A DNA stretch of 64,000 bases, from positions 1 to 64,000 of the forward strand of contig CASEDF010000006.1 of assembly GCA_949286705.1 (NCBI GenBank). The letters are read 5' to 3'. The position numbers and the translations under genes were made by a program. Below the pieces are notes generated by a model. It was not told the DNA's origin and did no database searches. It was given only the letters and a program-made list of their open reading frames with translations. This stretch comes from an uncultured bacterium (GTDB lineage Bacteria > Cyanobacteriota > Vampirovibrionia > Gastranaerophilales > Gastranaerophilaceae). Position 1 is the first letter of the stretch. The number at the start of each line of letters is the position of its first letter. Below are positions 45,515 through 47,645 of the stretch, piece after piece.

Positions 45515-45519
45515 AAAAA

Positions 45520-45609
45520 CGGAGCAAGAGGGATTTGAACCCTCGAGGCAGGTTAGACCCACCTAACACCTTAGCAGGGTGCCGCCTTCAGCCACTCGGC
45601 CATTACTCC
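45520..45609 (-). tRNA. tRNA-Ser(GCT)
   Basis: On the - strand: acceptor GGAGTAA / TTGCTCC, D arm GGCCGAGTGGC, anticodon loop CTGCTAA (anticodon GCT), long class II variable arm (TTAGGTGGGTCTAA-type stem), T arm GGGTTCAAATCCC, discriminator G. CCA not encoded. Confidence 0.95.
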
Positions 45610-45648
45610 GTATTTTCATGCCGGCAAATTTTGATTGCCGATAAGTCA

Positions 45649-45683
45649 AGTATAGCATAAATATTTTTTTTTTAAAGAGGTTA
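45649..45683. repeat. Left direct repeat flanking the GT-D gene
   Basis: AGTATAGCATAAATA, T-run of 10, AAAGAGGTTA. The same sequence with 7 T and one C/T change occurs at 46794-46825 in the thiG upstream region. Confidence 0.75.
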
Positions 45684-45763: not shown

Positions 45764-46678
45764 TTATATAGATACTTTGGTTATACGCTTATAAAAATCT
45801 CCGACATCCAGCGCCTGATAGCCGATTTCAGATAGCCGGTAAGCTAAAACCGTTGCCGCAAATCCGCACTCCAGATATATCAAATAATCTTTCGGATATT
45901 TTGTAATTTTATCGAAAATTTCATTATATTCTCTGTAACATTCAACAGACGGCACTTCAATAAAATGTCTTGATTGCACCTCATTGAATACATTTAACGG
46001 ATCCGAATTTAACATGGATTCTTTTGATGCAACAAAGACAACATTTCTGTTTTTCCAAAGATTTTTAATATATTCAATATGCTCAATATCCAGATAAGAA
46101 TATTCCGCCCTTTTTTTCATATTCAAAACTTGAGTACGAATACTCTTTATACTATAATGGCTAAAGCAGTATGCGTCACCATAAAAATTATCGGAGTTAA
46201 ACTTTATCTTTTTATAAATTTTATCAATAAATTTCAAATAATAAAAACAAAACCACTGAGTTGTTGTACGATATAAATGAAAAGGATTAATACATACTAA
46301 ACAATTATCATTACTACCCTTTTTACATATCTCCAGCAATTCTCGCTGCAAATCAGCTGTAGCCTGATCAGGTGCATCTTTAAACATAATCATATATTCG
46401 CCATCACCTATTCGTGCACAGGACAGTTTGTTTTCTACAATAGATTCTATAGTTTTTTCAACGGAATAAATATTTTTCGGATATTCTTTTTCTTTTTCTA
46501 TCAAAAAATTTATATCATCAGGTGAAAAAACATACGATTGAAAATCCCAAAAAAGAAGGCTCCTCAACCTGCACTTTTCCTTGAAGAGGGCGGCCGCCCC
46601 CCCCCCGAAGGCCGCATTGCACATGAACCTGAAAAATTGATATTTTATAAAATTCAAATGGCGTTCTTTCAAAAACAT
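45764..46678 (-). CDS. Phase-variable GT-D fold glycosyltransferase (DUF1792)
   Basis: 304 aa from the ATG at 46678, chosen for its AAGGAGG Shine-Dalgarno. GT-D/DUF1792 features: SCARIGDGEYMIM (R89-x-G-D-G-E, donor/metal site), ASKESMLNSDPL and the C-terminal DYLIYLECGFAATVLAYRLSEIGYQALDVGDFYKRI. Such enzymes extend glycans on surface adhesins or polysaccharides. Odd: codons 25-28 are a run of ten G (46597-46606) flanked by GCGGCC/GGCCGC, very GC-rich in this AT-rich gene. Losing or gaining one G leads to an early stop, so expression is likely ON/OFF switched; the present sequence is ON. Flanked by direct repeats. Confidence 0.85.
   Translation of the reverse strand: MFLKERHLNFIKYQFFRFMCNAAFGGGAAALFKEKCRLRSLLFWDFQSYVFSPDDINFLIEKEKEYPKNIYSVEKTIESIVENKLSCARIGDGEYMIMFKDAPDQATADLQRELLEICKKGSNDNCLVCINPFHLYRTTTQWFCFYYLKFIDKIYKKIKFNSDNFYGDAYCFSHYSIKSIRTQVLNMKKRAEYSYLDIEHIEYIKNLWKNRNVVFVASKESMLNSDPLNVFNEVQSRHFIEVPSVECYREYNEIFDKITKYPKDYLIYLECGFAATVLAYRLSEIGYQALDVGDFYKRITKVSI
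46591..46616 (-). repeat. G10 homopolymer within inverted GC-rich arms
   Basis: Ten consecutive C on the + strand (46597-46606) between CGGCC and GGCCGC arms. A slipped-strand hot spot inside the coding sequence. Confidence 0.9.
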
Positions 46679-46793
46679 AAAACCTCCTTTAGTAAAAACA
46701 GCTTGACACAATAAAGCTTTGCCCCGTAAGAAATCCGCATTCAGATGCCCGAAGATTTTAAGATGTCCGCATGGGGAACCAGTAGATATAACG

Positions 46794-46825
46794 AGTATAG
46801 CATAAATATTTTTTTAAAGAGGCTA
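46794..46825. repeat. Right direct repeat flanking the GT-D gene
   Basis: AGTATAGCATAAATA, T7, AAAGAGGCTA; second copy of 45649-45683, lying ~50 nt before the thiG start. Confidence 0.75.
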
Positions 46826-46871: not shown

Positions 46872-47645
46872 ATGACAGTAAGAATTGCGGACAAAGAATT
46901 CACCTCAAGATTAATGGTTGGCACAGGAAAATTTGATAATTTTGAAATAATGGAAAAAGCCCACAAAGCAAGCGGTGCGGAAATTGTTACCGTTGCAATA
47001 AGAAGAGTTGATATGAAAGCACCGGGGCACGTAGGATTAATGGACCATATTGACCTTAATAAATACTGGCTTTTACCGAACACTGCAGGCTGTGCAACGG
47101 CAGAAGAAGCAATTCGTGTTGCAAGACTTTCAAAAGCTATGGGTATAAATAACTGGATTAAGTTAGAAGTTATTCCCGATCCAACATATTTAATGCCGGA
47201 TCCGATTGCAACTTTGGAAGCAGCAAAAGTACTTGTTGATGAAGGATTTACCGTGCTGCCTTATATAAATGCGGATCCGATCTTAGCAAAAAGACTTGAA
47301 GAAATAGGCTGTGCAACAATTATGCCTTTGGCATCTCCCATAGGTTCAGGTCAGGGAGTAAAAACACTTGAAAATATAAAAATTATTATTGAACAGGCAA
47401 ATGTTCCGGTTGTTGTAGATGCCGGAATAGGGGTTCCGTCAGATGCTGCGACCGTTATGGAATGCGGAGCTGATTTTTGTCTTATAAATACTGCTATTGC
47501 CAAGGCGCAAGATCCTGTCAAAATGGCAGAAGCATTCAAATACGGTGTAATGGCAGGCCGCGCAGCTTACGAAGCAGGCAGAATGCCCAAAAAAGAAATC
47601 GCCTCAGCATCTTCACCTCTTGTTGGTGTTGTCGGCAAAAATTAA
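46872..47645 (+). CDS. thiG: Thiazole synthase
   Basis: 257 aa, normal length. Signatures: [26 protein letters not shown] (the catalytic Lys is expected in [11 protein letters not shown], ~97), [25 protein letters not shown] (phosphate site) and [29 protein letters not shown]. Makes the thiamine thiazole phosphate from deoxyxylulose-5-phosphate, dehydroglycine and ThiS thiocarboxylate. No thiS, thiF or thiH in the window. GGAGAG Shine-Dalgarno, TATAAT near 46843. Thiamine made here would supply the transketolase-type enzyme at 3376. Confidence 0.95.

Follow-up and report, generated by a model that had tools for sequence, protein, structure and literature searches.

A G10 tract in an accessory GT-D glycosyltransferase gene of a Gastranaerophilaceae bacterium: a likely phase-variable gene in a genome with dozens of poly-G prepilin genes

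The DNA analysed here, referred to as the window, is a stretch of 64,000 nucleotides from an uncultured bacterium of the Gastranaerophilaceae. Between the tRNA-Ser(GCT) gene and thiG, the window contains an insertion of about 1.1 kb, which is bounded by two copies of the direct repeat AGTATAGCATAAATATTTTTTT and carries a gene for a GT-D family glycosyltransferase (Table 1). This gene starts at the ATG at position 46678, with a GGAGG Shine-Dalgarno sequence just 5' of it at 46683-46687. We found that thiG directly adjoins the tRNA-Ser gene in every congener with a thiG match (11/11), with a gap of about 85-120 bp, and that the empty site in the aligned congeners shows one copy of the repeat with small differences. 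The GT-D gene is an accessory insertion, its site being empty in all 11 of these congeners.

Table 1. Features of the GT-D locus and the two further tract-bearing glycan genes of the same genome (G000). Positions are those of the window unless a locus is named.
Feature	Position	Strand	Remarks
tRNA-Ser(GCT) gene	45519..45610	-	left neighbour of the insertion
Direct repeat AGTATAGCATAAATATTTTTTT, left copy	45649..45670	+	22 bp
GT-D family glycosyltransferase gene	45764..46678	-	304 aa, intact (ON) as assembled
GT-D (PF08759) catalytic domain	45797..46417	-	begins about 60 codons past the tract; RIGDGE inside
TTG codon 38, enzyme frame	46565..46567	-	AAGGA upstream; TTGA overlap with the premature TGA in G9
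GC-rich arms flanking G10	46590..46615	-	GCGGCC (46590-46595) and GGCCGC (46610-46615)
G10 homopolymer	46597..46606	-	C10 on the plus strand; GT-D codons 25-28
Direct repeat AGTATAGCATAAATATTTTTTT, right copy	46794..46815	+	1,145 bp from the left copy
thiG	46872..47645	+	right neighbour of the insertion
Polysaccharide pyruvyl transferase gene, contig G000:C2	L044:1332-3008		G9 at codon 57; PF04230 1.8e-19
Polysaccharide pyruvyl transferase gene, contig G000:C12	L078:683-1711		C9 at codon 259; PF04230 3.9e-11

The deduced protein matched PF08759 with an E-value of 1.9e-26 and 93.7 bits against a curated cut-off of 27, the match covering residues 99-305 in a 315-aa reading of the gene. A phmmer search related it to the DUF1792 structures 4phr, 4pfx and 5v4a of the PDB (E about 1e-8 to 1e-7), and the GDGE region is conserved as RIGDGE or RLGDGE across its relatives. 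The single-sequence AlphaFold model was of poor quality (mean pLDDT 45). The family and motif matches and the sequence relationship to solved structures bear out the GT-D identity proposed in an earlier sequence-only reading of this DNA. The product is probably a GT-D-fold glycosyltransferase acting on a surface glycan. No PF08759 gene other than this one was found in the genome. According to the accessible part of its report, the DUF1792 domain of dGT1 from Streptococcus parasanguinis transfers glucose to the adhesin Fap1 (PMC5063993); the window enzyme shares with it (4pfx/4phr) the PF08759 family and an aligned GDGE region, with E about 1e-8. In the same part of that report, dGT1 is described as a two-domain protein, whereas the window enzyme has a single domain, and a G tract such as that of the window gene is not mentioned for it (PMC5063993).

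At an offset of 72 nt within the GT-D gene lies the G10 tract. Its position in the gene, the coordinates of the gene itself and the flanking GC-rich arms are as the sequence-only reading had described them, and our reading frames agree. As assembled, G10 yields the 304-aa product. Loss of one G brings in a TGA 13 codons past the start of the tract and a 37-aa product, and gain of one G a TGA at 29 codons and a 53-aa product, in agreement with the approximately 15 and 30 codons estimated previously; the frame is open again with G7 or G13. Both shortened products end ahead of the catalytic domain, which extends from about residue 88. The earlier statement that a change of length switches the enzyme off is sound in so far as G9 and G11 both truncate the protein before this domain, but the off state of G9 may be incomplete, as the TTG at codon 38 overlaps the premature stop and is preceded by AAGGA. 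This codon is a possible candidate for a re-initiation site in the G9 state.

The 70 bp surrounding the tract have a GC content of 64%, as compared with 33% for the GT-D gene. The tract is the sole run of at least six G or C within the 64-kb window, in which T runs reach up to ten. In 100 dinucleotide shuffles, which retain the GG content of the G10 tract itself, G8 matches averaged 0.26 and the observed number of three was reached in 2/100; for three consecutive GGG codons to arise from codon choice alone, p was about 1.5e-3. A role of the GCGGCC/GGCCGC arms as an RNA hairpin was rejected, since the fold was no better than that of shuffled RNA (z -0.87).

The 15 other genomes of the genus contained no close relative of the GT-D protein, one of them having a match of 30%, and no relative turned up when genome_contigs and viral_contigs were scanned with the protein; the tract motif was likewise absent from the viral contigs. 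The three closest relatives, all from other genera, are 47-49% identical over alignments that span the tract site, where the window has MCNAAFGGGAAALF as compared with MCNVTWGETRKYFF or similar in the relatives, and none of the three carries a G/C run of at least five at that site. Because these relatives lack the tract, G10 arose in the window gene or in unseen close relatives, and the switch is therefore not a conserved feature of the GT-D gene. The N-terminal region is poorly conserved, the window protein having four extra residues, and in many relatives the alignment begins only at about residue 45 or beyond. A DNA search with the tract region in 383 genomes of the order returned only short AT-rich matches, mostly to unrelated genes, and thus no shared element carrying the tract was found.

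The genome (1.85 Mb in 41 contigs) contains 67 G/C tracts of at least eight, all of which were inspected individually. Fifty-five of them, six being poly-C, have the prepilin motif FTLAEVLITLGIIGIVAAMTIP at most 900 bp further along in the coding direction, and four further tracts have the same prepilin leaders at contig ends or without the motif in reach; prepilin-type genes hold 59/67 tracts in total (loci L031-L091). The remaining eight are distributed over intergenic repeats or short ORFs (three), the arms of one G13/C12 palindrome (two) and substantial genes (three). Only GT-D and two polysaccharide pyruvyl transferases are substantial non-prepilin genes with such tracts, and all three are in frame. 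Other genomes of the family contain 17-94 tracts of at least eight each, and two genomes of other families contain 0 and 3.

One base more or less would reduce the first pyruvyl transferase (L044) to 60 or 69 aa, and the second (L078), a 343-aa protein as assembled, to 273 or 275 aa. A close orthologue of the first was not found in 190 other genomes of the family, the only match, at 33%, being in G106. In this genome, which belongs to another genus, 36 tracts were inspected and found to lie mostly outside prepilins. Ten of its tract-bearing frames were scanned, and these encode three GT8 proteins, one GT90 protein, one FkbM methyltransferase, one short-chain dehydrogenase, one thiamine-pyrophosphate enzyme and one weakly sulfotransferase-like protein, with two frames having no family match. 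The association of tracts with surface genes in G106 is strong but not exclusive, some of the genes being non-surface by name. A look for other tracts of at least eight in glycan genes of the genome, proposed earlier as a check, gave a positive result with the two pyruvyl transferases, and every substantial non-prepilin gene with a tract in G000 is thus a likely surface-glycan gene. At loci L262-L281 of G106, the G tracts nearly all come after an A, and often lie near gene ends or between tandem copies.

A typical tract-bearing prepilin gene consists of a Shine-Dalgarno sequence, an ATG, eight codons, C-GGGGGGGGG-CGACTCYYCTA, a spacer of about 30-690 nt and the prepilin motif, and we defined the family by an ATG, about eight codons, C-G9/10-CGACTC and then FTLAEVLITLG. 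Examples in the genome are L036, L042, L063 and L077. The window gene, with GCGGCCTTC-G10-CGGCCGCC and without the prepilin motif, lies outside this family; that its tract might be a copy of the prepilin tract element was rejected, as the flanks differ and CGACTC is missing. The prepilin reading ends after about 15 residues with G9 and about 17 with G11, whereas with G10 the ORF has a median length of 338 aa in this genome, as against 296 aa in the contigs of the public collection, which are mostly named Candidatus Gastranaerophilales. Among the CGACTC-type leaders, start and motif need a G10-class tract at 33/39 loci of this genome (binomial p 6e-11), 58/66 loci of the collection (p 5e-20) and 11/14 loci in other genomes of the family (p 7e-4), these p values being computed over paralogues that are not independent.

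At 113/119 of these CGACTC-type loci, no stop interrupts the pilin frame within the spacer. Tract lengths at these loci are G9 in 104/119 and G10 in 13/119, and loci with G10 at the DNA level are present in every genome set. This pattern would fit a switch that is off with G9 and on with G10, but a spacer about as open would be expected from programmed frameshifting on G9. Because the G10 loci exist, a DNA-level switch is favoured for the prepilins. As clean length variants, the syntenic prepilin pairs were mostly rejected, since their leaders or bodies differ; only L168/L211 (G10 vs G9, 92-95% identity) is a fair case. At the syntenic pairs L036/L163, L040/L186 and L069/L222, each from different genomes, the upstream DNA is 91-99.5% identical and the pilin bodies after the tract differ. 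It looks as if pilin bodies had been swapped between loci, downstream of the tract.

In our best reading, which we consider likely, the GT-D gene is a phase-variable surface-glycan gene of the simple-sequence contingency type. The tract would gain or lose one G through slipped-strand mispairing during replication, and a cell would thereby make either the full 304-aa enzyme from G10 or, from G9 or G11, a product of 37 or 53 aa without the catalytic domain. We infer that the tract slips in cells, that the loss of full-length GT-D would alter the cell surface, and that switching may be under selection from the host or phage. The gene would be part of a larger set, together with the two in-frame pyruvyl transferases and the approximately 59 prepilin-type genes with G9 or G10. 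GT-D shows three features expected of a contingency gene, namely a homopolymer of at least eight beyond chance, stops ahead of the domain and a concentration of tracts in surface genes, and the genome context strongly suggests a switch and appears to be the main support for it. The tract-free closest relatives and the lack of a close copy in congeners would argue against a switch. The phase variation proposed in the sequence-only reading is thus upheld by the tract, the frames and the genome context, and qualified by the relatives, in which the tract is missing and not conserved. A mutator background through loss of MutS was rejected, as each of the 16 congeneric genomes has MutS. Slippage at GT-D would therefore have to act despite mismatch repair, as occurs in other phase-variable bacteria.

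The tract-free relatives, the position of GT-D as a lone insertion absent from congeners, and the poorly conserved N-terminal region with its four extra residues would also be expected if the tract were a fixed or neutral expansion in a new accessory gene, encoding a Gly-Gly-Gly-Ala linker before the domain and acting as no switch. We regard this explanation as unlikely, though it deserves attention; it would not predict that the other substantial non-prepilin tract genes are surface-polysaccharide enzymes, and no other G/C run of six occurs in the 64 kb. The tract might instead modulate the enzyme, if ribosomes on the G9 message stopped at the TGA and restarted at the TTG of codon 38, giving a shortened enzyme that keeps the whole domain. 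This is consistent with the TTGA overlap in G9 and the AAGGA upstream of the TTG, with a catalytic domain that extends only from about residue 88, and with the many relatives whose alignment does not begin before about residue 45. However, TTG is a weak start with a long spacing here, and G11 leads to a stop at codon 54 without such an overlap, making modulation quite unlikely in our view.

It seems very improbable that the frame is corrected at the level of RNA or the ribosome, by transcriptional slippage or -1 frameshifting, with DNA length not being the main control. Prepilin tracts are mostly G9 (104/119) although the pilin needs one G more, the spacer stays open, and the pilin frame could equally be entered from G9 by a -1 shift, all of which would suit such a correction; however, the assembled GT-D frame is already open and needs none, G10 prepilin loci exist at the DNA level in every genome set, and in one syntenic pair L211 has G9 and L168 has G10. 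Homopolymers are error-prone, and as the contig comes from a metagenome, the GT-D tract could in principle reflect an error of sequencing or assembly. We give this almost no credence, as G10 as assembled keeps a frame of 304 residues open, the flanks on both sides are unique, and independent genomes of the family carry equally long tracts at dozens of loci.

As described in the available parts of the reports on Neisseria and Helicobacter (PMC5084427, PMC2823697), poly-G contingency genes are well known in these bacteria, and the present case resembles them in having a homopolymer in or near the frame, a product that would be switched by a one-base change, and many tracts per genome. It differs in belonging to another phylum and in a tract set dominated by prepilin-type genes. 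Switching in Neisseria and Helicobacter is, in those parts, backed by strain comparison or deep sequencing, whereas here it is deduced from the sequence. In Bifidobacterium breve UCC2003, a G tract acts as an ON/OFF switch of sortase-dependent pili, and its slippage has been measured (PMC9187656). As here, the organism is a gut commensal, an intragenic G tract separates a short 5' ORF from the pilin body, and the assembled genome is in the out-of-frame state. The two systems differ in extent, with two loci for sortase pili in B. breve as compared with about 59 prepilin-type (FTLAEV) tracts and three glycan enzymes here, and in that slippage was measured in the former and is predicted here.

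In the literature searched, mainly non-subscription, we found no report combining phase variation with Melainabacteria, Vampirovibrionia, Gastranaerophilales or gut cyanobacteria, which is weak evidence; the match for the lineage and phase variation was a flagellin survey, off the subject. Within that literature, the earlier remark that such switches are little described in this lineage held. The mechanism of poly-G slippage is already known, and its use on such a scale was not found described for the lineage; the scale of the prepilin tract set is the surprising part and more interesting than the GT-D tract. We lean, with some reserve, towards a genome-wide system of surface variation in this family of the Gastranaerophilales, comprising dozens of prepilins per genome with a G tract after about nine codons, which is mostly G9 and out of frame and in a minority G10 and in frame, together with a small number of poly-G glycan enzymes such as this GT-D, and pilin bodies that syntenic loci apparently exchange beyond the tract. 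Probably, these gut bacteria reshuffle their surface by slippage. If this is true, widespread uncultured gut bacteria would diversify pili and surface sugars by replication slippage, which is best described in pathogens, and most of the tract-bearing prepilin genes are likely to be annotated automatically as broken or without their true start codons.

A second type of prepilin leader was seen at L031, L061, L066, L074, L079 and L081, in which the ribosome site reads GGAGGTTA or GAGGTTA and a tract of G9-G11 is directly followed by TAACCTCC; RNA of this type could fold over its own ribosome-binding site. Spacers such as those of L038, L055 and L087 are made of repeated segments, AAGGGTTTTGGCGGTATTGG...TTACTAAGATACTATGATACTAAGGCAGTAAGAAG, mostly open in the pilin frame, and prepilin spacers give leaders of up to about 240 residues. 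L085 (G000:C16:19586-19625) is a long GC palindrome with arms of G13 and C12 between AT-rich flanks, and may represent either an assembly artefact or a site of recombination.
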